A DNA stretch of 64,000 nucleotides from Persicaria tinctoria (lineage: Eukaryota; Streptophyta; Magnoliopsida; Caryophyllales; Polygonaceae). Position numbers and translations under genes: made by a program. Shown piece after piece: positions 44,865-60,953 of the stretch. The notes under the pieces were generated by a model, which saw only the letters and a list, made by a program, of their open reading frames with translations, had not been told where the DNA came from and did not search any database. Each line of letters starts with the position of its first letter. Positions within the stretch are counted from its first letter, which is position 1. Where the stretch lies: NCBI GenBank assembly GCA_037127255.1, contig JBANSL010000013.1:16946688-17010687 (forward strand), in the 5' to 3' direction.

Positions 44865-46922
44865 ATGGACAAATTGTAAGGACATTTCTCCGAAGGTGAG
44901 GCCGTGAGGTCAGTAGGCTTACATTATTGTTGTGTTAATTACTAGGTTTGCTAGAGCAACTATACATGATTGAACCTATCCAGACGGTGCATCGTCTGCT
45001 ACGAACTGTAATTTATGTAGGTCTGTGCAGTTTGTGTGTTCATTGAGTGATGACTTATCGTAGCTCCTTCACTTGGACTATCATATATGATAGCTCTCAC
45101 ACATGGAAATATGGAATGCTTAAAGCAAATGCCTTTCTTTTGATTCAGTGCAATACCTTTAGCTAAAAAAATATACTGTATGTATCTTTGTGTGGGAAAA
45201 ACAACAAGGCAAACAAACAGAAGTATTTATTTGTTTCTTGGGGATTAATTTTGCAAATGCTGCACAAATTGATTGATTGATTGATTTCTTGTATGTATGT
45301 GTTTGTTGTTTACCCTTGCAAATAATGCATTGCTTAGTTGCATTATTCCTGGTCTCCTATTATTAGTACTATTGTGGAGATTCTGATGCTTCATTAGAAC
45401 CTCCATAGTCCATACGTTCCTTGATTTTCATTATCTTCATCTTGCATTCTATCTTGCAGGGTCGGATAAGACGACTGCTGAAAAGGAAGCCAGAGGCCAG
45501 CCGCGAACATCGCAGCCATGGGCCCTTGTATATGATCAGTGCTCGTTGAGGCCTCGAAAATATCAAGCATCACAACTGTACAAGTGCCTATAGCTGGGGT
45601 AACAACTAAAAAACGACAACTAACTAGAGGGCCTTTATGTCAGGAATATGAATCCCTCACTTATTGTAATATCTAAGGGCCTAGCCTACGTCTAACAAGC
45701 TTTAAAAAAAGTATGAATTCTATTGAGTGATTTATTGATTAGCTTAACAACCTCTATATATTGTTAGATCATACGATGAGCGAAGCGAGTGCACAATAAG
45801 AATGTGTAGGTGAGACCGCAGGATTGTAATCCATCATGTAACAGCATTAATGAGCTGCTCCAACTCAGCTCGTTCTGTATAGAACAGAACTTTTCCTCGA
45901 TTTCCTCCTCCATGTAGCTTAAGCTCTCTTTGTTGTTCTTCCATGGAGACCTATGGCTACAGTCAGTAGTTCAGAGTTTGACATATATGGTCATGCAAGA
46001 GAGTTAATTGAATATGATGTAACGAGAATGATGATAATAGCGAAGAAAGATACAAAGATTTACGTGGTTCGATAACAATGTGTTACTTACGTCTATAGGT
46101 AGAGAACCAGTTTTCTATTAGAGGGAGCAAAAGCAGATTGGGGGACTGAAAACCCAAAACAGATAGGCGATAGACCCATTTACAATAAACATTTCATACT
46201 ACAAAGGTGGGGTGGCGCTACATCCATAACCCTCGCTAGGAACACGTTGCTTCCTGGATCCTCGACGGTCAGCGAGACTACCGTTGGAGGGCAGAACCCT
46301 CCGAACTCCCGATGCGTCGTCGGTCAACAATAATAAGAGAGAGACTTTGACATCGTGGATGTGATTATATTTCCATTGCACGAGATCAAAAGATTAACAA
46401 GGGCTATATATTTTGATCCCTCAGATTTTTATTTCTAAACACATATATTGGACCAAATAAAAAAAGGTAAAGTGTAGATAAGTACTCCTTTAGGCAGACG
46501 TCATTGTCACGGGGTAACCCACACATTCCATAATTCATAGAGTCACCGGCCTCTCAGTCAATATTTGTGCATTTAGCTACTTTCTTTGTGATTGAAATAT
46601 GGCTGACAAAAAAACATTCATAATTGACCGATAATGACAAACAAATTAAATGAGATTGTCCTTTACACTAATCTACAAGTTTGGAAAAGTAAATGAACAG
46701 AAATTATAAGAAAAATGATTTATAGTCGTCTATCTTACAATAGTAGAGTATCAATACTCATGGGGTAATTTCATCTCTCACTCTCTTCGTAATATTTTGA
46801 CATCTTATTTTTCACTAACTCTACCCCATCCTTTAAGAATTTCAATTTTTAATCCACACTCATAAGTTTACCTTATTACTATTTTTTAAACTTTATTTAT
46901 ACCCCACTATATATTTTTAACC
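44865..46922. other. Downstream region of the kinase gene, no supported gene
   Basis: The first few hundred bases are probably 3'-untranslated. Around 46040-46330 is a retro-like phrase (GATTTACGTGGTTCGATAA). 46505-46690 is the partner of 34385-34575. The last ~180 bases before 46923, with their continuation after 59776, may be another MITE that the MULE entered, but its ends are unclear. Confidence 0.4.
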
Positions 46923-47000
46923 GGAAACGATATATACACCGCTAATTTTTACTATTTCCACCACTAATCACCGCATAGGTATGCGGTGATTTAATGACGG
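46923..47000 (+). repeat. Left terminal inverted repeat of the MULE
   Basis: It starts GGAAACGATATATACACCG. The right terminus read inward starts GGGGTATGATATGTACACCG. The next 18 bases are identical, then the two diverge by small changes up to and through the first palindrome. Confidence 0.88.
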
Positions 47001-47172
47001 TCAACGCAAATACCGCATGTATATGCGGTATGTAACCGCATGTATATGCGGTGAGTACCCCGTTCCGTTTCAACCCCACCGCATACCCATGCGGTAATAT
47101 CGGATAACCGGATTTACGGGCAACAATTCGGTTGAGCCGAAGGGACCGATAGACACCGCTTGGGTATGCGGT
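46970..47172. promoter_or_regulatory. Palindrome cluster, left end of MULE (5 sites)
   Basis: Sites of the form ACCGCAT-N4-ATGCGGT at 46970-46987, 47012-47029, 47035-47052, 47078-47095 and 47155-47172 (the last with ACCGCTT). Spacers are AGGT, GTAT, GTAT, ACCC and GGGT. These lie in the subterminal region past the 3' end of the transposase-OTU gene and have no promoter beside them, so they may serve transposase binding or chromatin control. Confidence 0.85.
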
Positions 47173-47536
47173 ATACTATGACACTACGAATTAATCGTAT
47201 AATCCAGGCACATCTGCGGTGTTATATCCTTCTACAGTTGAATTAACTTGTAATATGTTATATCCTTCTACAGTTGAATTAACTTGTAATAATGTCGTGA
47301 TCTGAAAAAACTCATTTGTTGAATTTAAAACGAAAGTGCGATAAATATCCTCGATGACGAGTTGAATTCAAAAGAAATATGATATTGCACCAACATTGAT
47401 TAAAACGAAAGTGCGATAAATATCCTCCATGACGAAAATATGAAGTTCGAAAAATAATTTGTGAAATGGAATAGACAAAGATACAACCTAATTGAACAAA
47501 CGAAGTTCGAAAAATGACACCAGAAAGTGGAAAGTG

Positions 47537-48818
47537 CTAATACGATAGGGGACGGCCACCATCACGACGACGGTAAGCTCTATATCGTGCTATCCTCGCT
47601 GCAAACTGCTCTTCCCAACCGTCGACCGTGCGATGGTGATGCCGTGTCCATGTGACGTAGACTGGAGGAAGAGGTGAACCAGGAAACAACCAAATCTGTG
47701 AATACAAGGTGAATATTGACATCAGAAAAGATAAACAAAACATTAACAAATTAATGAATATGAAATATGAAACGTACCGGAACGAAATGGTTGTTGTTGC
47801 CGACTAAAGCTATTCCATCTAGCTCCTCATAGGCCGGTACTGACGGGCCACCGGTGGCGTATAGAGGTAGGCACAACATAGGCATCATCTGTGACAAAAT
47901 CACCAAAGGACGCTGGTGAAGCGTGGCAAACACCTCGCCCATGATCGGAATCTCCATCCAATACGTAGCATCATGACACGTGCCGAAATAGTTGACCCTC
48001 ATGATGAGCTCATGTAAGGCCGGATAGTAATGGTACCGATCTGAATGCACCTGCAGCTCAACGGCCAGCTCTCGTCGAACTCGAGGCCATGCGTCTTGTC
48101 CCAAGTTCAGCAGACAAGCAAAAGACCTATACCCACAGTGACCATCACCTGCAACATTTGTGACGGCTCGTATGAAAGTAATCATGAATTCGTCGATGTT
48201 GTCAGTGCCCCAATTGAATTCTACTCGAGGTAGATTATGTGGTGGAAGCGTCGTAGGTGCTGGTGTTGGAGTGTCGCCTACAATCTGCGAAGGTGGCTCC
48301 GACGCTGATCGACCTCGTCCACGTCCCCTTCCACGACCCCGTCCTCGTCCTCTGCCTACTTCTCGGCCCCTAGGAGGGTCGTCGATGGCAACGTCGTTGG
48401 ACCCAGTGGCCTCCTTAGTACCTTCCACGGCATCTGTTTCGTTTGATGTCGGTTGACCCCGACCTCGGCCTCGCCCTCGTGCGGATCCAGTGGTCGCCTG
48501 TCTATCTGCCCGACGTTGAGCCCGAGCACGCTCACGTTCCCAGGGTAGAGGGTTCGTCTGACAGGGGTGGCGAGTCCTCGGTCTCCCGAGCGGTCTACGG
48601 TCCTCCGGGTCAGGGGTGGTCAATGGTGTATGGGAGGGACGATCCTCGTCGTTGAATGCCGACGCGATTCTCCAACGAGTATCCTCGTCCATAGCTCCGC
48701 TCTGGAACAAACTGATCATGCGCGACATGTCCACATCAGCTCAGCTGAGGGGAGTGTTATCCTGGACGTTGTCAACATGAGGCCTCTTGAAATCCAATTG
48801 CTTCCAAAAAATGTGTAT
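47537..48818 (-). pseudogene. OTU-protease part of the transposase fusion
   Basis: This continues the transposase frame after the TAG at 48819. It is crossed by TGA at 48741-48743 and then stays open. A Gly-Arg-rich linker (RGRGRGRG repeats) precedes an OTU domain with the nucleophile motif GDGHCGYRSFACLL and the catalytic His in NNNHFVP. A GT-AG intron at 47777-47696 joins HFVP to a basic tail (IWLFPGSPLPP...). OTU proteases remove ubiquitin; a transposon copy might protect the transposase or act on chromatin ubiquitin, which is inference. If translated separately it could start at ATG 48728 and would be complete from there on. Confidence 0.85.
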
Positions 48819-50969
48819 CTAGGATGGTCTGATGGGTATCTGCGTGTCTCGACAAGCTTGCATGTCATGTGTGCATGGAAGACCGTAGACGTCCCTCCAG
48901 TATGCATCTCTGCATGGTTGCGACGGTGGCTCGGCTTCCATCTTTGTGTAGATTTCGAACAACAGGTTGAAACATTCCTTCGACACAATATTCCGAATTC
49001 GATCGAAAATCCATAGGTCGTGGGAGTCTGTAGGCCAGGTGTTGTTCGCTCTCCCCAATGTATTCTTCACCTCCCATATTTGATCCGCCATTATCAGATC
49101 GATTGTGTTTATCACGTGAGTGAAATCACCGACTGCAGAGTTTAAGGTCTTTTTCAACACAGAATGAGCAGCCTCAACCCTAAAAGATAAGTGAGACTCG
49201 TAGGGGAAGATCGTTATATGTAAACAAATAACGTGTATAATGAATTTTATAATGAAAATGTAGGCGCACCTGTTCGTCGTGGTCGTACCAAAATGCTGGA
49301 TTGCGTCTGTCCATGCACGAACTATCTGCTCCGAGTAATCTTGAAACCATGTCGCCTCCAAATACGGCATAAGCCCTTCGATATGCCCCCACTCTGCATG
49401 CATACCCCTCCTTCTAGCGGTGAAAGTTTCAACCGATCTAGATTGGAATAGGCCAACACATGCGTTCTTGAAACGCCTAGCAACATCAAGATTCTTTGAC
49501 TTCTGGAAAGCAGCTTATTCGCATCGTCAGAGGACGTGCACTGTGCACAACATATGCCTGACATTGGGAAGAACTTCTCGTAGCGCCGCAATCAACCCCA
49601 ACTCTCGATCAGTGACAACAACGTTAGGAAGATTACCTCGCATGAGGTAAACGAGCTGCCTCAACGCCCAAATGTATGTATCTGTGTTCTCGTGTGACAT
49701 GAAGCAGAACCCGATGACGAAGTTCTTCTTTGTGCAAGTAAATCCAACGAACTCACACAAAGGGATCCCGTACCTGCATTTATGGTGAAATATTTGAGTT
49801 CGCAGACCCTGTTGGAAAGGGGTAAAAGAATAAGTGTATATAGAAACTTACGCATTCGTCCGGTATGTACTATCGACGAGGACGACGTATGGAAACATGG
49901 CTAGAAGATGGCGAGCGTCTGTATGGACGATGAATAGATCTTGAAGCCTGTTGGGATTGTTAGGGGATCTCCTCGTACAGTAGTAGTAACCCTTATCTCG
50001 CAAAATGCGGAGTGCTTCCTGGGAGACTGTTCGATCTCCTCTCGCTTCAGCTTTAAACTTTGCTCTCGCATTGTACACCTGGCGTCGCGATGTGAAGTTC
50101 AACTTCTTTCGTGTGTCAGCTGTCATCTTCAATGTAGCTAAAATCGGTTTTGGTGGGGTACCAGCGACGGTAAGGGCCAACGTAGTGTCTCTTTCATCTG
50201 TATCCATTCGTCCGACGTACGGGTGACCGTCCAATGCACCGGGGAGTAGATGATTGTGCTTGCCATGAATAACGTCTAGGCCCCATTCGCCCCGTTTGAA
50301 CTCCACGCCAGACAATGCAAACGGACACCCCTCTATCTTCGAAACAGCTCTGCGCGTGTTCCCGCTTGCATCATCTCCGGCTACTCGCGGTCTCTTACGG
50401 GGAGTGTACTGGCCGTACTTCTCACATGCGAGCAATAGACTTCCACGCCTTGTAGGAGTGCTCCCCCAAGAACGCTTGATTGTCAAAACCATATTAAGCT
50501 TTAATGCTGTGCCACGACAGTGTTGTAGGAGATCGTCGCGATTGGTCCACGTCTGGGATGTAGCAAAATCGGGAGTGTAATCGCGGTACTCCTGGTTACG
50601 GGCCTGATCGTCCTGACCGTCTTCCGGCATCGGATCAGCCTGCTCCTCTAGTGGTAGCTGTCAGCATGCAAACAGTACATATATATTACGTGACCCATTC
50701 ATGGTTTCCGTCTGCTCTATTTAAGAACCTAATTTATTCCCCTACATTTACAAACCGGTACCTATATCTTGGTTTCCATTCCATATGATTCCACTACCTA
50801 TATTCTGGTTATTCCACTACCTATATTCTACCAACAACGACATTTCAAATGATAAACATTAATCACATACCGGAAGACGAGGGGGTGGTGAGTTATCGGC
50901 CATTGACGTAGTTGGAGGTGCTTCCTCGCCTTGACTTGAAGGCCGTCGATTGGTGTCGTCGTTAACCAT
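48819..50969 (-). pseudogene. MULE transposase (N-terminal part of transposase-OTU fusion)
   Basis: The gene starts at ATG 50969 (MVNDDTNRRP). GT-AG introns at 50870-50658, 49851-49774 and 49269-49180 keep the frame. Domains in order: a FAR1/WRKY-GCM1-type zinc finger (EGCPFAL ... HNHLL), the MULE DDE core with VVLVDSTYRTNAYG, VVVTDRELGLIAAL, HMLCTVHV and VEAAHSVLK, and a SWIM finger ending GLPCTHDMQ. In-frame TGA (49527-49529), TAA (49515-49517) and TAG (48819-48821) interrupt it. Each is one C-to-T step from CGA, CAA or CAG. The TATA box is at 51047-51038 on the minus strand, next to the palindrome cluster at 51051-51215. Confidence 0.9.
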
Positions 50970-51050
50970 TTTCGGAAATGACTGTAGATGAGGTGTGCGG
51001 GGATTGGATGCATTCCTACGGAGAGCGGTGTCGACTTCTTATAAAGTAAC

Positions 51051-51215
51051 ACCGAATAGGTATGCGGTGGTTCCAGATGACCGTTGGTGTCGACTGATTT
51101 GAATTTGTGGGCCCACCGCATAGGTATGCGGTGTACCGCCGCATAGGTATACGGTACACTGTACACTACCGCATAGGTATACGGTTAAACGCTGGATACC
51201 GCATGGGTATCCGGT
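51051..51215. promoter_or_regulatory. Bidirectional promoter with 5 palindromes (transposase / hairpin RNA)
   Basis: Sites at 51051-51068, 51115-51132, 51138-51155, 51168-51185 and 51198-51215. The cluster lies between a minus-strand TATA (51047-51038, 70 bases from the transposase ATG) and a plus-strand TATA (CTATATATA at 51222-51230). The outermost palindromes are only 6-7 bases from each TATA box. Confidence 0.85.
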
Positions 51216-51282
51216 ATGCATCTATATATACAGCCATGGTCGGTTCGTGACATTTGCCGTGGCGGAAAGGCGATGATAATAT

Positions 51283-51351
51283 GTGCGAAATAGTCAGGGT
51301 CAAAGATTTGTGTCTTCAGATCGAAATCTTTCACCCTTGACTATTTTGCAC
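51283..51351 (+). ncRNA. Pre-miRNA-like hairpin 1
   Basis: Arms 51283-51309 and 51324-51351 pair along ~27 bases with one G-U pair, one mismatch and one bulged base; the 14-base loop is GTGTCTTCAGATCG. The stem length suits a plant miRNA duplex. The 3' flank CGGGTTATATCGCTTCG is shared with hairpin 2, but the stem is not. It lies ~55 bases after a plus-strand TATA box. Confidence 0.65.
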
Positions 51352-51432
51352 GGGTTATATCGCTTCGTCTCATACATTAAATAAAATCCGTGAGTATGCC
51401 TTTTCCATTGCTCAATAGTGATGATTGCTTAG

Positions 51433-51495
51433 GCAACATGCCACGGCCGGCGATTTGTGTCTTTGGATTGAAATCGCCGGCCGCTGGCATGTTGC
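51433..51495 (+). ncRNA. Pre-miRNA-like hairpin 2
   Basis: Arms 51433-51456 and 51471-51495 pair perfectly except for one bulged G. The loop GTGTCTTTGGATTG is the loop of hairpin 1 with three changes. The flanks (GATGAT upstream, TCGGGTTATATCGCTTCG downstream) are also those of hairpin 1, yet the outer ~20 bp of stem are unrelated in sequence and much richer in GC. Confidence 0.7.
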
Positions 51496-51554
51496 TCGGG
51501 TTATATCGCTTCGATATAGTGTTATGTAGATTCTATCTAAAAAAAAGCAGTAGG

Positions 51555-51632
51555 TATCCGCAGGATAATGTGAAAGACGTTGTGATAGTATATATGTACG
51601 CCCATAACGTCTTTAACATTATCCTGTGGATG
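51555..51632 (+). ncRNA. Pre-miRNA-like hairpin 3
   Basis: Arms 51555-51581 and 51606-51632 pair over ~27 bases with one internal mismatch and a few wobble pairs or mismatches near the base. The 24-base loop is unrelated to that of hairpins 1 and 2. Confidence 0.6.
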
Positions 51633-51921
51633 ACTGTTGCTCATCCAACCAATGCTTCGGAAACGTACCGGTACGCGTACAACGTCATCTTCGGCCGTCA
51701 TCGTAGTGGGCGTCTAAATTACATCTGTCGAGGGAGAATGAACCTCTTACAAGAGGACGAAGCTGGGAACTTCCGTCGGAACTCCCGACGGACTTTCTCA
51801 TCTTCGCACTCTTATAAAAGGCTTGCTCTCCTCCGTCCGACGGAATTTGGACGACCAACTCCGATGGCGGAAGAAGACCACGATGTCCCCGTGCCGGTAC
51901 GTTTCCGGTTTTTTTTTCCAT

Positions 51922-52012
51922 ACCGCATGTCCATGCGGTATGGAATACCGTTTGTTTATGCGGTGCTATACCGCATGTCCATGCGGTATAGCATACCGTT
52001 TGTGTATGCGGT
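51922..52012. promoter_or_regulatory. Palindrome cluster upstream of the B3 gene (4 sites)
   Basis: Sites 51922-51939, 51947-51964, 51970-51987 and 51995-52012, alternating ACCGCAT and ACCGTTT left arms. The TATA box CTATAAAT follows at 52047 and the B3 ATG at 52083. Confidence 0.85.
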
Positions 52013-52082
52013 ATGATTGTCGCATATAACGCGACATGATTTCCCGCTATAAATTACCCCCGTGCGATGTCGTGATTACAAC

Positions 52083-52516
52083 ATGGCGGCTAGTAACACA
52101 CCAAGACCTTTCTTCTCAGTCTCAGGGAGCGGCCCGAGGGACTTTTTCTGGTGGGTAGAAGACGTCTCGCTGACACAAATATTGGTAAGCCCTATTCTGT
52201 CGTCTGACATATAATTCACAATGGTCCGTACTCACTAAGTACATCTTGAAAATTGCAGCCTCTGCCTTCCAACTTTGAAGAAGAATACGGGCTGGCCGGC
52301 GTCGAAAGAATAACGCTGACTAATTGGGTAGGGAGGAGAGGCACCAACATCCGGGTTGAGCGCAACAGATCCGGGGCACTCTGGCTCTCCCAAGGATGGA
52401 ATAATTTTGCGTTATCCCGTGGCGTACGCGTAGGCGCGGGGTTGATGTTTAGCTACTTAGGCAACTCTCGGTTTCGGGTAGTCGTAGTGCCGCCGAAGAA
52501 TGTTTCACCATCCTAG
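52083..52516 (+). CDS. Small B3-domain protein
   Basis: Two exons, 52083-52184 and 52259-52516, join in phase (GTAAGC donor, TTGCAG acceptor) into 119 residues. The second exon is a plain B3 DNA-binding fold: PLPSNFEEEYGL, then VERITLTNWVGRRGTNIRV, ALWLSQGWNNFALSRGVRVG and LMFSYLGNSRFRVVVV. B3 domains are plant DNA-binding modules that recognise short asymmetric sites through the major groove. This protein has almost nothing else, so it would act as a bare DNA-binding protein in the nucleus. It is the first gene downstream of the hairpins, with its own TATA box and palindromes. The frame is intact. Its target is unknown; the element's palindromes are a reasonable guess. Confidence 0.8.
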
Positions 52517-52810
52517 GAATAGAACAACAATGATTTCCTTTGATGTGTGACATGACGACGACGCGGCAAAACTTTATAACTGAGTTATTTTTGCTGTAAT
52601 CTTATATCATTAATTAATATGAAAAATGAGGCACTCTATCCGTTTTCATGTAACGGGTTATTTCCTGAAATAACCAAAATTCATACCATAAAATGATGTC
52701 GCCGTGCTGGTACGTTGCTCCATGTCTTCGTTTAGAGTCCCTAATCCACGTGCTGGGACAGGACGCTGTTGTCATGTAACGGTTGTGTAACCATGAGGTG
52801 TGGCTGTATC

Positions 52811-52880
52811 ACCGCATGGATATACGGTATAAAACCACCGCATGGGTATACGGTATAAAAACACCGCATGGGTATGTGGT
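52811..52880. promoter_or_regulatory. Palindrome cluster upstream of Cys-rich gene 1 (3 sites)
   Basis: Sites 52811-52828, 52837-52854 and 52863-52880. CTATAAAAGG follows at 52895-52904, 15 bases from the last site. Confidence 0.85.
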
Positions 52881-52938
52881 AGTGGTGAAGGAAACTATAA
52901 AAGGGGTTGGTTGATGCTTTCAGTAAACCATAACCACT

Positions 52939-53427
52939 ATGGCAACTACCAAAGTGTATGAAGCGGAGACAAGATCGGGCAGCAGGTTTAGACTTACAGT
53001 CGAAACTTTTCGTACGCCACCTGACGATATATTGTGCAACTGTCAGCACAGAAGCTCAACAGGATGGCCGTGCTGCCTTTGCCAAGTTGTATGCGAAAAA
53101 CGCGATACAACAAGAGTTTCCGATTCGGTTGACCTAGAGTGCGTTCAAGGAGTGACTTACGAGGATGTCCGCATGACAAGGCCGTACTCGTATAGGGATA
53201 ACCCTGCAGCATATTATATTCACGTGACGGAGGCAATTACGGAGCTTGTTAGCGACTTCTTCTCCAATTTGGGATTGGGCAGTGCAGCGCAGGTGGCAAG
53301 ATACACAGTGGAAAAAGTCGTGCGGCGTGCAAACACCAAGCTTTCAAAGTACGCATTTCACCGAATACAGATTCACATTTTGCCGAGCAATGTAGAAGAG
53401 TCAGTTGGTAGTTGTTATGTACCATAG
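52939..53427 (+). CDS. Cys-rich MULE cargo protein 1 (unknown family)
   Basis: A single-exon, intact 162-residue frame starting ~35 bases after its TATA box. Around residue 32 is ILCNCQHRSSTGWPCCLCQ, which resembles a SWIM zinc finger (C-x-C ... G-x-P-C) with the final His missing. A middle part (VDLECVQG, then AAYYIHVTEAITELVSDFF) and a C-terminal strand YAFHRIQIHI follow, ending EESVGSC. The two genes to its right are paralogues with the same order of motifs. No known family comes to mind. Because MULE transposases end in a SWIM finger, derivation from one is possible. The three copies suggest a dosage or specificity role in the element's life. Confidence 0.75.
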   Translation: MATTKVYEAETRSGSRFRLTVETFRTPPDDILCNCQHRSSTGWPCCLCQVVCEKRDTTRVSDSVDLECVQGVTYEDVRMTRPYSYRDNPAAYYIHVTEAITELVSDFFSNLGLGSAAQVARYTVEKVVRRANTKLSKYAFHRIQIHILPSNVEESVGSCYVP

Positions 53428-53593
53428 GTAAAATGTTGTCGGTTTGTAATTTTTGTGTATCATTTATGGTGAATTTATCCGGTTCCGATTTAAACAATTA
53501 ATTATATTTCGCTGATAAATCAGTTGCATTACACATGCGGTGATACATTGACTATTAAACGGATCTACCGAACAACTACCTACTGCATCAATT

Positions 53594-54112
53594 CTACTGC
53601 GGAATATGTGGTATACATTGCAAAGGGTCCCACCACAGTAGAGGATCTGGTGTACAACTACCTATTGACTCCTCGAGTAGACACCGGCTAATGTGGATCT
53701 CAATGCGGTTGAATGCGTACTTCTTCACTTTGTCGTTCGCTGGACGGACTGCGTTGTCGACAGTGAACCTTGCAATTTGAAGCGCGCACTCTAGCCTGAC
53801 ATCGCTGAATAGGTCGCTGATTGCGCATTTGATTGTCTCAACCGCCTCGCCGTAGTATGACTCAGGGTCGTCAATGTGCAATTGGTGACCTTTCAGACAC
53901 GCCAATTCAACCGGCTCCGAGAATGCGTACCTATCGCCTTCAACGCCTTTGTAGCATACAACATGAAAAAGACAGCACGGAAACGATTGGCACCACCGCT
54001 TGTGCTGACAATTGCACAAATAATCCTCGTATGGCCTCGAGAACTTTTCGTGTATAATTTTGTATGACACACCCATATTTGACTCACCTTCAAACTCAGC
54101 TACTCTAACCAT
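53594..54112 (-). CDS. Cys-rich MULE cargo protein 2 (paralogue)
   Basis: A 172-residue frame, start chosen at ATG 54112 because it aligns with the start of protein 1 and lies ~45 bases after a minus-strand TATA (54167-54157). Motifs match protein 1: YLCNCQHKRWCQSFPCCLFH, VELACLKG, ESYYGEAVETIKCAISDLF, FTVDNAVRPANDKVKKYAFN and RIEIHI, then EESIGSC. The C-terminus is ~18 residues longer. It is transcribed convergently with protein 1 and divergently from protein 3. The frame is intact. Confidence 0.72.
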   Translation of the reverse strand: MVRVAEFEGESNMGVSYKIIHEKFSRPYEDYLCNCQHKRWCQSFPCCLFHVVCYKGVEGDRYAFSEPVELACLKGHQLHIDDPESYYGEAVETIKCAISDLFSDVRLECALQIARFTVDNAVRPANDKVKKYAFNRIEIHISRCLLEESIGSCTPDPLLWWDPLQCIPHIPQ

Positions 54113-54189
54113 GATTTGATTGTTGTGAACTACATGAAAAAGAGGCGGTTTATCGCACTTTATAGCCAATGTGGGACAACTACATACAT

Positions 54190-54310
54190 ACCGCATGCCC
54201 TTGCGGTAAACATATACCACAAGGGCATGCGGTATGTGTTCACTGCAAGGGTATGCGGTATACAATACCGCGTGGCCCTGCGATATATAAACACCGCATG
54301 GGCATGCGGT
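54190..54310. promoter_or_regulatory. Bidirectional promoter with 5 palindromes (Cys-rich genes 2 and 3)
   Basis: Sites 54190-54207, 54216-54233, 54242-54259, 54267-54284 and 54293-54310, with the middle three partly degenerate. They lie between the minus-strand TATA (54167-54157) and the plus-strand TATA (54317-54324). Confidence 0.85.
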
Positions 54311-54383
54311 GGTGGCCTATAAATCGTTGTGTGTCCAGCCCAGGTGCGACGGGACCCCCCACGGCTGTCCAGCTAATCACAAA

Positions 54384-54827
54384 ATGGTAAACACTTTAGA
54401 CACATACCGGCGAACGGCGGGCTATCTTGAGTACAATGTTACATTAATTCGTTGCACGGAGCCACGGTGGCCGGAGGAATGCAACTGCAGGCATCCAGCA
54501 TACATTCCGGGATATTCGTGCGTAATCCTACAGTGTCAATTCGAGACAGACACTGACATAGCATATCCGATCGAGTTTTCTTGTGCGCATTGTTATGACG
54601 ACAGAGGATTTCCCGAATCGTATTACTTAGATGTAGAGGCGCGTATTGCGAATCACATTAGGAGATATTGTCGTTACGATGTTTACATGTTCGGGGCTAA
54701 TGGCCTATGCGATCATGTTATCCGAAAGCTGCGATCATTCAACGCAGGTGAAAGGCATTACGCGTTCAACCAAATGAATATTGTCATTTCCATTAATGAG
54801 AGGTCATCAGACGAAGGTAGTGATTAG
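54384..54827 (+). CDS. Cys-rich MULE cargo protein 3 (diverged paralogue)
   Basis: A 147-residue intact frame starting 60 bases after its TATA box. It keeps the pattern of the other two at lower similarity: EECNCRHPAYIPGYSCVIL, IEFSCAHC, FPESYYLDVEARIANHI and RHYAFNQMNIVISI. It has two extra Cys in the middle (CAHCYDDRG). It is the most diverged of the three and lacks the EESxGSC ending. Confidence 0.7.
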   Translation: MVNTLDTYRRTAGYLEYNVTLIRCTEPRWPEECNCRHPAYIPGYSCVILQCQFETDTDIAYPIEFSCAHCYDDRGFPESYYLDVEARIANHIRRYCRYDVYMFGANGLCDHVIRKLRSFNAGERHYAFNQMNIVISINERSSDEGSD

Positions 54828-55186
54828 ACATGCATTACCAAGTATGTAGTGTGATGTGTATCTGTTGTATTTTCATTCCTAAGAAGTTCAACCGTTTAAT
54901 GAAATTCTGTAGCCAATCCCGATCGGTGATTTATATCATATATTATTTCAAACGTGGCAATGAAAATAGAAAATATGTTCAAATAGGAAACACATGACAC
55001 AAATAGTGCACGAACCAACTTATTATTCAAACAACATTGTTACAACTAGACGACAAACAAACTACTACACAACCAACAATAACAACAACTTCATCACACT
55101 GCCACAAACAAACGACTACACAACCAACAATAAGAACAACTGACACATACGAACGACTACACAGAAGTCTGATAAACACATACATC

Positions 55187-55375
55187 CTAGATCTCGTCGG
55201 CATGCTTGTTGTTTATGTGCCTCCTAAGATGACCGTGCTGCAGGTTGTTGGTCACAGTGTAGCGATGGCCGCAGTGACGGCACGTTGCAGTAAAAGCGAT
55301 GCCTCCAAGCGCCTCCTTTTTGTAGTGTTTGGTGAACTTGTCTTCTCGTGGAATTGGTCTTGGTTCGGACGACAT
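55187..55375 (-). CDS. Single BED-like zinc-finger microprotein
   Basis: A 62-residue intact frame with one finger, CRHCGHRYTVTNNLQHGHLR followed by RHINNKH (C-x2-C ... H-x(n)-H), preceded by SKYYKKEA-like basic residues (KFTKHYKKEALGG). This is the spacing of BED-type fingers found in hAT transposases and plant regulators. With nothing but a finger, it would bind DNA or compete with a larger protein. It is convergent with Cys-rich gene 3 and divergent from the coiled-coil gene, sharing a palindrome-rich promoter. Confidence 0.7.
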   Translation of the reverse strand: MSSEPRPIPREDKFTKHYKKEALGGIAFTATCRHCGHRYTVTNNLQHGHLRRHINNKHADEI

Positions 55376-55452
55376 TCTCGGCGGTGAAGTGTGTTTCCGG
55401 CGGTGGGGTGTTTCCGGCGGAGGTTTACGTCCACTTTTATAGACTAGTAGCT

Positions 55453-55551
55453 ACCGCAAGCCCATGCGGTATATTGCACCGCATGTACATGCGGTGCGGT
55501 CGTACATACCGCATGGACTTGCGGTATGACACCACCGCATGGGCATGCGGT
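55453..55551. promoter_or_regulatory. Bidirectional promoter with 4 palindromes (BED / coiled-coil genes)
   Basis: Sites 55453-55470, 55478-55495, 55508-55525 and 55534-55551. A minus-strand TATA lies at 55444-55435 and a plus-strand CTATATATAT at 55561-55570, each about 10 bases from the nearest site. Confidence 0.88.
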
Positions 55552-55606
55552 GTCCACAACCTATATATATTGCCCGGAGTCTCTACCCAAGGTACCACAC
55601 ATCAAC

Positions 55607-55879
55607 ATGTCTGACACCAGCGGGGAAAGCTCAACCAACGACATAATACGTCAAGGCACGATGGAGGAGTTTGAGGCGGTTCTCTACACTGGTAGTCCAC
55701 GGTCAAAGACGGTGGAGGCGATGATAAAGAGACTACGTGAAGAAAATCGGTCGCTGCTGGTCGAAAACCAACAAGCCCGTTGGCGGATTTATATCCTGGA
55801 AAGTCAAGTTGCAGTTCTAGAAGATGAAAAAAAGGCTCTTGTAATGAAGCTAGGTGAAGCTACTGTGCATAACACTTGA
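55607..55879 (+). CDS. Small coiled-coil protein
   Basis: A 90-residue intact frame beginning MSDTSGESSTND. From about residue 35 the sequence is a heptad-like helix (VEAMIKRLREENRSLLVENQ, then LESQVAVLEDEKKALVMKL) with Leu/Ile/Val at alternating 3-4 spacing, as in leucine zippers, but without a basic DNA-binding region. It probably dimerises with itself or another element protein. It starts 37 bases after its TATA box. No family assignment. Confidence 0.65.
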   Translation: MSDTSGESSTNDIIRQGTMEEFEAVLYTGSPRSKTVEAMIKRLREENRSLLVENQQARWRIYILESQVAVLEDEKKALVMKLGEATVHNT

Positions 55880-56174
55880 CTGTATTAGGGCCGTTTGTAG
55901 TAGGTTGCTTTAAATTTATAAACTTCGTTTCGAATCATGATATTGAAAGATGTGTACGGACGTACTATTCAAATTTGAAAACGATCTGCAACGGTAACAA
56001 ACCATCAAATCCACACCAACACACAAATTACGTAATCCGAAATCGAATCATCAACTACTCCACAAAAACCAATCCAAACTACTGCACAAAAAAGAATCCA
56101 ACCTACCAACTACTACACAAAAAGTCATCTACCCGCAAACAGAACAACCACATACATCATCCCAGATGGCACCG

Positions 56175-59132
56175 TCACTGTGGGGGAGGACCCCAAAATT
56201 GCTCGTAGATACGAGCCAGGTGTGCAGCTGTCAACTCAACTCCAAGGTCCTTGAGTCGCCAAATCTCCAACCCAGCCGCATTATAGCGCTGCTGGGTTGG
56301 CGACGGCGGCGGTGGCGGGGGTGGCGACGCCGGGGGTGGCGGCGGTGGGATGATGGGCTGGTGTCGAGGAGTGTCAGGAAGTAGGTATGGATGACTATGG
56401 CGGTGAAACCACTCCAGATAGTCATCGGCCACGCCATATGGGTACTCTTCAGAGGTCCGTGGCAACTCCTCCAGGGGGAAAAGATGATCGAACCTGTGCG
56501 CCCAGTGGTTGTCAGCTGGGTGGAACGACGCCTTCTTCTTGCACTTGGCGGACTTCGGTCTGAGCACTACGGTAGGTCTGATTGGATCAGCGGGAATGTG
56601 CTGAACCCATACAAACTGTCGCAGCACACGGTCCGGCATATACGGCTCCTCCTCGAACAACCACCGAATGCTCGGTGCCCCTATATCTCGAAAGACGCAG
56701 ATCTCCATCAAAATCCAAGTGTCTACCAAATGGCATGAAATCGATCTGCAATGGAATAGAAATTGTTATTATGACTAAAATCTAGTTTATAGTATGACAA
56801 ATGTGAGTGCGGATATGAATTGTGTTCGTACCTCGTCGACAGTCATCTCATCCAGCCTCCGCCGCAGAACATCCAGTCGCTCGATGCGAGGCCTATCATC
56901 CCGGGTGACCGTAGTGGAAAATGGCGTCGCCCCCAGGACGTACCTCACCCCGTGTCGCGGATCCCGGGCAAGCCTCCGATCGAGCGTCATGCCGGGCTTG
57001 AACACCGGAAAATGCAGCCATATCCACACCTACAAGGGAACAATACTATCAGCAACATAGTCATTATAACTTAGTTACAAAACTTATAAAATAAATAATC
57101 ACAGAACGAATGACTTACCTCCAATAGTTTTGTACAACCGTCCATGTCTTTGGCCAACTCCCGGGTCGCCTCGCCCAATCCCCGATACAAGCACGCCAAG
57201 ACCCTTGCAGCTAGAGAAAGATGCGACACCTGCGCTGCATCCATAAACCTACGAATCACCTCCGGACGCAATCTTCCGCCCGACTTATCGATGAACAAGG
57301 TCGCAGTCGCAATCATCCCCATCAGAACACCCAAGATGCACTCCATATCATGCTCAAGTGGGGCCCCATCTAGAACCCGCTGTCGCATCGGTGCTATCTT
57401 CTGAAGGAGGAGCTGAACAGTAGGGCCTCCATGGGCCCATGCGCTCGTCCGCTCGTTCTGAGTCAAGCCGTAATACTCCACAACTGTGTCCCTCGAGGTG
57501 CCCATGTCATCCAAGTGAATACACTCTTCTCCGTCCAAACCAAGGCCAAGTATGAAGACCACATCGTGCAGTGTGATGGTGATCTCTCCCCATGCGAAGT
57601 GAAAACTGTTCGTCTCGGGGTGCCAGTGCTCAACAAACGCACCGATCAGAGTGTGATCCACATGATCCCACTCGAAATCTCTCAGGTCCCAAAACCCAGT
57701 CTCACGCACTGCGGGAAACCAGGACTCCCGTCCATCAACCTTCAACAACGCCTCTACCCGGCCCAGCGACTGCCCTCGTCTCTACACACGCACACCCCTA
57801 CGCAAGGCTTCGTCCTCCCGTCGCCAAACAGCCTGTGCAATGTGGGTCTCGTAGTCTCTCAGAAGGGAAACGGTATGTGCCCCCCCCGGCATTCGGGCAG
57901 AACAGCCCGAATGACCCCTGTCCTGCTAGGCTCGCCATGCTGCCTATCACCTCCTGCACTACTCCCCTCACCATGCTGCCCAGCACCACCTGCCCTACTG
58001 CACTCACCACGCTGTCTCCGCCTCCTCTGCACTACACGGACATGGTAACTGTCATGATGAGCCTGCAACTGCTCTACCACTATCTCAGCTCCAGTCTGCA
58101 CATGCTCATCCGTCTGCCGTGCTCGGTCCCCTCGTAGGTACTCCTCCACCATCTCAATACCCTGGTCGCCTTGACCAGACTCTCCGGTCGACTGCACCAC
58201 TGGGTCATCCGTGTGGTCAGACATCAAGACCAGCTCAATCTGCACCAGACTCTGATATGTCTCTATAGACGACTGGGACGTGGGCCCCAAACCGTCACTC
58301 TGGTCAACACGTGACTGAGAAGATGGCCCAATATCAACTCCTACAGTCTCAATATCCCTCTGCGGAGGATCCACTACATCTTCCACCGTCTGGCCCTCCC
58401 TGACCGCAGCCTCGGTATCATCATCTATCGCGTCGCTATCCGTCTCCATAGGAACTGATACATCCTCCAACGTCTGCCTCTCCCTAATGGCAGCTCTCCT
58501 AGCAGATTGCAACACTACCCTCTCTCCCAAATTTCTCGATAACACAGACTGTGTAAATTAAAATATATTTATCAAAATCCTATCGCTCAATTACAAAACT
58601 ATATCGTATGACTGTCTAAATGTGGCAAGATTTTCGTAAGTATATTAATGATATCATCTTAATACTAACAATTCATAAGAAAACATAAATATATACTTAC
58701 TCGATTTCAATTTCCCTCACCTAGTATTTGTCAGAATCCTATGGCTCGAATACGATACTATATCGTATGACTGACTAAATGTTGCAAGATTTTCCATAGG
58801 TTTATAAATGATTTCAGCGTAATACTATCAATTCGTAAGAAAGCAGAAATATATACTTATTCGATATCAATTTCCCTACACCTAGTAACAATTTTAACAT
58901 ACCGTAGGCTGAGTGTGTGTCTCCAGCTGTGGCGGTACATCTGTCGTCCTCCGCCTCTGTATAGTGGGTTCCGGCTACATTATATATAACATTGAAATGT
59001 TAACACTATTTCCTTCAAATTAAAAAATATAGCAAATTGATTTTTATAAACATTAAATGTTACCTGTAACGGATGTCTCCGAAAAGGACCGACATCATCA
59101 GCCGTGGCTTTTCCACGATTGTCTTTCACCAT
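56175..59132 (-). pseudogene. Plant mobile domain (PMD) protein gene, frameshifted
   Basis: Exons inferred from splice borders: 59132-59064, 58974-58903, 58548-57119, 57029-56832 and 56745-56175. The N-terminal ~230 residues are acidic and Gln/Ser-rich. The PMD core follows, with HPETNSFHFAWGEITITLHD and VVFILGLGLDG, then MPDRVLRQFVWVQHIP and YLEWFHRHSHPY, and a Pro-rich tail. PMD proteins include MAIN and MAIL1 of Arabidopsis, which act in gene silencing, and many transposon-borne copies. A run of eight C at 57880-57887, a break near 57750 and one after the last acceptor shift the frame. The promoter has a minus-strand TATA at 59304-59296 and palindromes beyond it. Confidence 0.78.
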
Positions 59133-59327
59133 CTCAGAACTCGGGTACAAAGTGGTGGTAGATATAGGGACGGGGAATGGACGGAACTAAAAGTCGGGCT
59201 CGGAAAGCAAGGAATCGGAAGAGATTCGAGTAGGGCTCGGAAAGAAAGGAATCGGAGAAGATTCGGTGTGTCGGACAACTGGGCCCCCTAACGCCTATTT
59301 ATAATGGGCCCCCAACGGTTAAAAATT

Positions 59328-59717
59328 ATCGCATCTCCATGCGGTCTTTTTTTACCGTTGCCACACAACGGTAAAAAACATACCGCATCTCCTTGCGGTA
59401 TTGTTTTTACCGTCGCAACAACGGTAAAAAAAATTACCGCATGGAGATGTGGTATGTTTTTTACCCAAATTTTCCATATTTTAAAATTATACCGCATGGG
59501 TATGCGGTATAAGTTTTAAATATTTTAAAATTCCACCGCATGGGTATGCGGTATTTTCGGATAACTTCGACCCAACCGGATTATCGCGTTACGGACTCCG
59601 TTTCAACCTAACCCACCGCACGTACTTGCAGTGTTTTTACACGGTCAACGGACATACCGCATGTACATGCGGTATGTCGGGTTAAATTTTGATTAAGCCA
59701 CCGCATAGGTATGCGGT
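59328..59717. promoter_or_regulatory. Palindrome cluster at PMD promoter and right MULE end (8 sites)
   Basis: Sites 59328-59345, 59382-59399, 59436-59453, 59491-59508, 59535-59552, 59615-59632, 59656-59673 and 59700-59717. The last belongs to the terminal inverted repeat. Between the first ones are also TTACCGTTG...CAACGGTAA palindromes. The nearest site is ~24 bases from the PMD TATA. Confidence 0.85.
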
Positions 59718-59766
59718 GGATTTGCGGTGTAAATAGTAAAAATTAGCGGTGTACATATCATACCCC
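59690..59766 (-). repeat. Right terminal inverted repeat of the MULE
   Basis: Read inward it begins GGGGTATGATATGTACACCG and matches the left end as described there. The duplication ATTTTTAACC follows at 59767. Confidence 0.88.
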
Positions 59767-60953
59767 ATTTTTAACCAATCAAAACTTATTTCACTTAATT
59801 AAAAAATATAATCCACTTTTATAATTATTTTTAAAATAAAAAAAGAGATGGGAGAAGGAGTGGGTTTACCCCTTCCTGCTAGGTTTGCCTCTTTCCCTTC
59901 CACTAGTGGTTGATAAAAACCCATTGATGCTCTGTACTATAATGTAGAATAAAACAGAAGCTCCCAAATGATTTTAAAAAAAAATAATGAACGCACGCCT
60001 CTTGGAAAATTAATTGGCTGAAAAACTAGAATTTTTTTTCAAAATATTTACTAAAATAAGTATTTACAAGTTCAAAATATTTATAAAAATATTTATTTTT
60101 TTTAACAGTTTTGTTAAAGAAATACCGGTTAAAATCGCATTTCTTGTGTAAATTACAAATTTAAACCTAACACCAGGAGGATATTACTTTTTTTATATAT
60201 ATAAACCGTATTTTATACCTATTTTAGGATTTTATTTTAGTTTTTTATTTCTAAAAAACATATTGTAAAACGTGACAATATTTAAAAAACAACATGTAAT
60301 TAATACAGTAATAAATATAAGAGCAAGTTCATTCACACATTACGAAAATGGTCCAAGTATACAATCTTTTCATTAAAAAATTAACATCTTTATTTTTATG
60401 TGATAAGAATGTTTTTTTTACGTAATATATTCCAAATTTTCAATAGATATTTGATTGAGTATTAGGTAGAGATTTAACCAAGAGAATGAAATGGTATACA
60501 AATATATTTAAAAGTAATGAAGAATAAAATAATTTAAAACTCTTTTTTGTTCTTAAAAGAACTATAATTTTTTTTAAAAAAAATTAGAAAATATAAAATT
60601 AGAAAAAAAAGGTTTGATTACTTTTCATATAAAAAAAGGTTTGATTACTTTAAATATATTAATTAACAATAAACAACATGTAAATTAAATATTTGTGTAA
60701 ATTAAATTATATTTAACATGCTCACTAAAATAGCACCACTCGTTTACACTAGATGTTTACGTATATAACCGGAAAATATATTTACTTATTTAGTGCAATT
60801 TGGCGCAAAAAATAATATTTCATAGTCATACTTATCAAAAATATTAACAGATAAATATGTAGTATTTGATAGGTGCTATTTTATTTATATTTATATTTAG
60901 ATTATTTTTTGGTGGAGATAATTGTTTATATTTATATCTATTACTCCCTCTGT
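59767..60953. other. AT-rich spacer
   Basis: Low-complexity AT sequence without a supported gene. The first ~180 bases may be the second half of a MITE that the MULE split. Confidence 0.35.

Follow-up and report, generated by a model that had tools for sequence, protein, structure and literature searches.

What role does a short palindrome play when it recurs at both ends of a transposon and again beside its promoters? This question was raised by a Mutator-like element (MULE) of Persicaria tinctoria, located within a stretch of 64,000 nucleotides on contig JBANSL010000013.1 (positions 16,946,688 to 17,010,687), the whole of which is referred to here as the window. The palindrome had been described in an initial annotation as ACCGCAT-N4-ATGCGGT, and an element-wide operator system analogous to that of the VANDAL elements had been proposed. 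In the analysis presented here a regulatory site acting across the whole multigene MULE was well supported by the position and number of the copies and by the conservation of their arms within arrays. We consider it likely that the palindrome is bound by a dimeric protein which the element itself encodes and which would join the element into one regulon.

A palindrome confined to one element of the window

The 64-kb window was searched for ACCGCAT-N4-ATGCGGT with up to three mismatches, using 100 dinucleotide shuffles as control. There were 35 matches in the window (14 exact, 13 with one mismatch), while the shuffled windows contained a mean of 1.33 (sd 1.16) and at most 5. All 35 matches were inside the MULE and the remainder of the 64 kb contained none. 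One match at 53168, which has three mismatches and lies in the reading frame of the Cys-rich protein Cys1, was set aside as chance. The other 34 sites form seven clusters of 5, 5, 4, 3, 5, 4 and 8, in agreement with the approximately 34 copies in seven clusters first reported. The palindrome is real and well outside chance.

The spacer had been said to be always four bases long and free in sequence. Its length was borne out: 27 arm pairs with at most one mismatch were found at spacer 4 and no more than one at any other spacer from 0 to 20 (one each at spacers 9 and 15). In the element no spacer other than 4 gave more than 8 pairs, and almost all of those had two or three mismatches. A motif-free scan of the window returned ACCGCAT as the sole 7-mer besides (TA)n with more than two exact inverted pairs at N4 (14; the runner-up had 2). 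The spacer sequence is not free. On 65 of the 68 half-sites the first (outer) spacer base is a purine, and on 67 the second is a base other than A, with A on one only; 65/68 half-sites have a pyrimidine just outside the arm. Because of these preferences outside the arm and in the spacer the site is a 20-bp palindrome, YACCGCATRN-NYATGCGGTR, with the half-site read as Y-ACCGCAT-R-B.

Neighbouring sites in clusters 2–6 are 23–30 bp apart in 15 of 16 cases and 25 or 26 bp apart in 10 of 16, with one pair at 64 bp. The site-to-site steps are 42, 23, 43 and 77 bp in the left-end cluster and 41–55 bp, with one of 80, in the right-end cluster. For comparison between sites we used the five arrays of at least three close sites, which hold 20 of the 34 sites and come from one element copy. 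The 14 core positions were 87.3% identical between sites (379/434) and the spacers 69.4% (86/124), and the linkers were 44.7% identical at the better of two anchorings (51/114), a rough figure as linker lengths differ. With arms 87% and linkers 45% alike in tandem arrays, the arms appear to have been kept while the linkers were free to change, implying selection on the arms within this one copy. The arrays probably grew by tandem duplication.

Sites, promoters and element borders

The position of the sites was compared with the features of the element, which are as follows (window coordinates).

46913–46922: target site duplication, left copy, 10 bp, exact direct repeat with 59767–59776
46923–59766: whole Mutator-like element, 12,844 bp, with terminal inverted repeats (TIRs), target duplication and MULE domain
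46923–46969, + strand: left TIR, outer part (46929–46969 against 59719–59759, 41 nt, 90% complementary)
46970–47172: cluster 1, five palindromes at the left end
47537–50969, − strand: transposase gene in several exons (3′ end uncertain), with a FAR1-like zinc finger, a MULE domain and a C-terminus that is SWIM-like and, by eye, OTU-like
51051–51215: cluster 2, five palindromes between the transposase and hairpin-RNA promoters
51255–51650, + strand: three hairpins of miRNA-precursor (microRNA-precursor) type, after the TATA at 51223
51922–52012: cluster 3, four palindromes upstream of B3
52083–52516, + strand: B3-domain protein (Pfam B3), 119 amino acids, exons 52083–52184 and 52259–52516
52811–52880: cluster 4, three palindromes upstream of Cys1
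52939–53427, + strand: Cys-rich protein 1 (Cys1), 162 amino acids
53594–54112, − strand: Cys-rich protein 2 (Cys2), 172 amino acids, Cys1 paralogue, 44% identical
54190–54310: cluster 5, five palindromes between the Cys2 and Cys3 promoters
54384–54827, + strand: Cys-rich protein 3 (Cys3), 147 amino acids
55187–55375, − strand: small C2H2/BED-like zinc finger protein, 62 amino acids, all Pfam matches below cut-off
55453–55551: cluster 6, four palindromes between the zinc-finger and coiled-coil promoters
55607–55879, + strand: small protein, 90 amino acids, coiled-coil by eye
56175–59132, − strand: plant mobile domain (PMD) gene, several exons
59328–59717: cluster 7, eight palindromes, PMD promoter and right end
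59718–59766, − strand: right TIR, outer part
59767–59776: target site duplication, right copy

Gene starts were taken as the predicted ATGs downstream of a TATA box; if the longest reading frames were used instead, the starts of Cys2 (54196) and of the coiled-coil unit (55526) would fall inside their clusters. In each of the eight predicted coding units a site lies upstream of the ATG, the nearest at 55, 58, 70, 73, 77, 77, 81 or 195 bp, and in all eight a TATA box stands between site and ATG, starting 7–35 bp from the site (usually 6–38 bases had been claimed). Beyond the stop codons the next site is 294–3448 bp away. When the seven clusters were placed at random in the element in 200,000 trials, the best outcome, reached 12 times, was six of the eight units with a cluster in the 200 bp upstream; seven or eight never occurred. 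The hairpin unit has the same layout as the coding units, its TATATA at 51223 starting 7 bp from cluster 2. The promoter boxes were picked because a reading frame or hairpin comes next. There are 49 TATA[AT]A strings on the two strands of the element; 15 have a site no more than 60 bp upstream, so that these strings alone are no promoter marker. No other exact 11-mer was found in three or more promoter regions that could be a second shared promoter motif.

Of the nine predicted units, eight (seven coding units and the hairpin unit) have their starts at internal clusters 2–6, the PMD gene starts beside the right-end cluster and none starts beside the left end. The statement that every promoter has its sites was thus upheld for all recognised units, the eight coding units and the hairpin unit, and was not upheld for a TATA-like box at 51813, which lacks a site; conversely, the left-end cluster serves no recognised promoter. 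The convergent gaps at 54828–55186 and 55880–56174 were confirmed to be free of sites. The gap at 53428–53593 had been described as containing only decayed half-sites, and it holds one exact half-site at 53535.

The element itself is a member of the MULE superfamily, with transposase domain, target site duplication and terminal inverted repeats all present. The MULE-type DDE transposase domain (Pfam PF10551) was matched with E 6.9e-24 and 84.6 bits (cut-off 27.6). MULE target site duplications are approximately 8–11 bp, and an exact 10-bp direct repeat, ATTTTTAACC, was found at both borders of 46923–59766; an alternative border with an exact 8-bp repeat, ATACCCCA (46899 and 59760), fits less well. 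The 41-nt inverted repeat is short compared with the TIRs of 100–500 bp given for MULEs in the part of PMC3310237 that was available, and the outermost 6 and 7 bp beyond it pair poorly. The terminal clusters were confirmed where the palindrome had been said to mark both ends, but the element runs 47 and 49 bp past the outermost palindromes. In the left TIR tip there is also a TATATA at 46936 on the − strand, 33 bp from the outermost palindrome, which points outward to the flanking DNA; an outward promoter at this point is conceivable.

Candidate binders and competing explanations

As we picture it, one element protein would bind the site arrays, commonly with sites 25–26 bp apart, beside each TATA box. 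Once bound it would switch all units together, either by activating them or by keeping host silencing off, and the same protein, or the transposase itself, would read the terminal copies for end recognition. The transposase is a candidate binder because the sites are at both ends; it would be the likeliest one, via its FAR1 (WRKY-GCM1-like) zinc finger, and would then couple end recognition to transcription. The B3 protein would be the next likeliest, and the Cys-rich and zinc-finger proteins could bind or assist. Since the two termini carry sites as well, binding by the transposase is no less likely a role than that of a dedicated anti-silencer. The effect of binding could be activation, repression, anti-silencing or end-marking.

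FAR1 fingers are grouped with the WRKY-GCM1 zinc fingers, and FAR1 was matched at E ≤1 in all five aligned sequences (the window exon and four relatives), with a best E of 6e-06. The domain (PF03101) was precomputed for two of the four transposase relatives, and the C, C, H and H residues are conserved. Two leads come from the half-site. Its YATGC is like CATGC, the RY core recognised by several B3 proteins. Its ATGCGGT is like the optimal octamer of GCM, ATGCGGGT (PMC8859918, from the available part of that source). In the available part of PMC4350883 WRKY, GCM1, FLYWCH, MULE and BED are named together, citing Babu et al. 2006, FAR1 is not mentioned, and doubt is expressed that the classical WRKYs share one family with the rest.

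Several observations weigh against the reading of the palindrome as the site of an element-encoded protein. The FAR1 match of the window's own transposase is weak (E 0.009, 17.1 bits, below the cut-off of 28.1), and that of the best-scoring relative, at 27.3 bits, is just below the same cut-off. The likenesses of the half-site to the RY and GCM sites are short and were noticed after the fact, and any other motif that fitted would have caught the eye as well. Two in-frame stops interrupt the transposase frame in 49510–49532, just after the MULE domain, so this copy may be defective; it is probably not autonomous and may not make transposase. The TATA-like box at 51813, followed by an ATG at 51864 with a frame running through cluster 3, has its nearest upstream site 597 bp off; we think this unit is a relic, yet it stands as an exception. 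Finally, the flanks outside the arms are more symmetrical than on permutation within clusters, both in matches over 8 positions (121 against 103.3, p 0.006) and in contiguous palindromic extension (53 against 31.5, p 0.00045). The palindromic flanks may be a trace of how new sites arise. The symmetry is carried mainly by the sites at 51922, 51970, 59656, 46970 and 59491, where perfect arms reach up to 13 bases.

The same extension of the flanks, together with a loop length that is always 4, could be taken to mean that the palindrome folds into cruciforms or RNA hairpins, with the 7-bp arms as stem and a loop of 4 nt. Such a structural function was disfavoured and we regard it as very improbable, for at all 28 core positions that deviate from the consensus the deviation is on one arm only, and none is compensated on the other. 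As the arms deviate one at a time, where a hairpin would keep its pairs, the pattern favours a dimeric protein over a folded hairpin. The protein could still be one of the host, if the element had adopted the site of a host regulator (a host B3 protein, for example) to time its expression. Sites near TATA boxes and the overlap of the half-site with the RY core would agree with this, but we find it unlikely: no site with up to three mismatches occurs elsewhere in the window (64 kb being too short a stretch for a verdict on host promoters), and a 20-bp palindrome in 34 copies better suits a private factor.

Two further explanations concern the element's own proteins. A dedicated protein (B3, Cys-rich or zinc finger) rather than the transposase might bind the sites and remove DNA methylation and silent chromatin, in the manner of VANC, which we hold to be possible though less likely than not. 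VANDALs are not known to have long TIRs. VANC proteins bind or affect YAGTATTAY or AGTTGT[CA]C repeats in VANDAL non-coding DNA, and methylation over the element falls (PMC5735166, PMC10398659, both available in part); the element studied here, a multigene MULE too, likewise has a short motif in tandem arrays in its non-coding DNA. CpG observed/expected is 1.06 in the element as against 0.78 in window positions 1–46900, 0.84 and 0.79 in two Copia-like regions, and 0.44 and 0.74 in the left and right flanks. Such a value would be expected if the element were young or if it escaped methylation, and does not tell the two apart; coding content and age are confounders, and the PMD gene of the element itself has a ratio of 0.86. 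Against a VANC-like protein, no DUF1985/DUF287 was found in the reading frames and exons scanned (a scan that did not extend to the first exons of the transposase and PMD genes or to exons that went unpredicted). YAGTATTAY (VANC21) was not enriched, with 1 in the element, a simulated mean of 0.47 and at least as many in 187/500 simulations, and AGTTGTMC (VANC6) was marginal (3 in the element, simulated mean 0.87, 25/500 at least as many). VANC21 motifs also occur in introns (PMC5735166, available part), whereas the sites here are only in promoters and at the ends. The operator system that had been proposed by analogy is therefore partly supported: a regulatory site across the element is well founded and a VANC-like logic is possible, while membership of the VANDALs is unsupported.

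The internal copies could instead be duplicated terminal modules, that is, a transposase-binding or synapsis site which spread inward and mainly recruits or titrates transposase, with gene control as a by-product as in MuDR. We regard this as somewhat doubtful. It would agree with outermost sites 47 and 49 bp from the ends, with the presence of three ACCGC/GCGGT pentamers in the TIR tips beyond the palindromes (the element has 21 more elsewhere, away from the sites), and with the precedent of the MuDR TIRs and of MULEs with internal TIRs (PMC3310237, available part). But the site is the only exact 11-mer common to internal and terminal clusters, and the close register of the internal clusters with TATA boxes is not required by end recognition alone.

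Encoded products, known systems and significance

The B3 domain was recognised by Pfam at E 1.3e-07 (31.9 bits, cut-off 30.1), with At1g16640 as the nearest solved chain (E 0.0033), and the B3 protein had no relative at E 0.001 among 8 candidates. The PMD was matched at E 1.4e-29 (103.8 bits, cut-off 34.9) for 57074–57781 and with 24.8 bits for 56175–56708. Cys1–Cys3 are related, with identities to Cys2 of 44% (Cys1) and 25% (Cys3), and Cys2 is 86% identical to its relative P0001, with the same start Met. The three Cys-rich proteins (52939–54827) have a CNCxH motif, followed in two by PCC, which by eye is SWIM-finger-like, and none gave a Pfam family above cut-off. On the transposase side, P0002 is 97% identical over the 260-amino-acid exon at 49848–50630, and by this likeness another copy of the element exists. 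Further protein relatives (P0003–P0005) are 39–48% identical. The C-terminal transposase exon (47751–48728, − strand) has the stretch GDGHCGYRS...NNNHFVPV after an RG-rich tract; it had no Pfam or PDB match and is called OTU-like by eye. No credible solved structure was matched by profiles of the transposase exon and the Cys-rich proteins.

The three hairpins at 51255–51650 are candidate transposon-encoded miRNAs under a palindrome cluster. Their z-scores are −7.7, −7.7 and −12.8 on the + strand and −7.7, −8.0 and −7.7 on the − strand; the folding energy is lower on the + strand for all three, and by z-score only the third clearly prefers it. Loop and basal sequence are common to the first two and the arms differ, which resembles one precursor scaffold with different guides. 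No Rfam family was reached at the gathering score (20/20 matches were below it), and the first 21 nt of each hairpin arm had no match in the window with up to five mismatches beyond itself and its partner arm. Downstream, the TATA-like box at 51813 and its ATG lie within an inverted repeat of 53 nt, 79% complementary (51658–51710 and 51855–51907), part of which recurs by eye near 52695, upstream of cluster 4.

The exact site (R and Y in the spacer) was found in 33 stretches of IMG/VR, one site each, and no IMG/VR stretch had the paired site. The paired site did occur in seven bacterial contigs (L034–L040), all from three Phycisphaerales metagenome-assembled genomes, and was rejected as a coincidence, being part of a larger inverted repeat unrelated to plants. 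These bacterial copies have AGC/GCT outside the arms and are apparently a repeat family of their own. Word searches of the open-access literature (titles and abstract openings) returned no paper on such a site, which is no proof of absence in print, and the string 'palindrom' is absent from the main text of PMC5735166.

The VANDALs are like the present element in being multigene MULEs with a short tandem motif in their own non-coding DNA, read there by an element protein as is presumed here. They differ in that the motif here is a 20-bp palindrome, neither YAGTATTAY nor AGTTGT[CA]C, and is found only at the ends and close to TATA boxes. In En/Spm and Ac, TnpA and the Ac transposase bind clustered short subterminal motifs near both ends, and TnpA also activates and demethylates its own promoter. 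The clustered short motifs near both ends are shared with the present element, but these systems belong to other superfamilies and their sites are subterminal, not at internal promoters. Among transposon-borne miRNAs, miR820 targets DRM2. It is carried by rice CACTA elements (PMC3459959, available part), a parallel for the miRNA-type hairpins, of which there are here three in a row under a palindrome cluster. MuDR of maize, also a MULE with TIRs, expresses its two genes from promoters in the TIRs, which hold the MURA sites as well (PMC3310237, available part), a combination of end binding with promoter control like that proposed here, but the present element has nine predicted units, eight of them at internal clusters and all with the same short site, and is not TIR-driven.

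The means by which a transposon holds many genes active in the face of host silencing have been worked out in detail for few elements, the VANDALs among them. If our reading is true, recognition of the ends and control of every gene would meet in a single palindrome, which would be a second solution of a different build, and a short list of predicted binders follows from it. We can tentatively imagine a self-contained MULE regulon, in which a 20-bp operator read by the element's own protein would mark both ends and the TATA of about nine units, so that transposase, accessory proteins and three miRNA-type hairpins, possibly directed against host silencing genes, would be switched together, like a DNA virus or phage regulon more than a transposon, although this fuller picture is doubtful. 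The layout of the palindromes would provide a sequence signature for finding such elements, and the three hairpins under the same control make coordinated counter-defence a testable idea.

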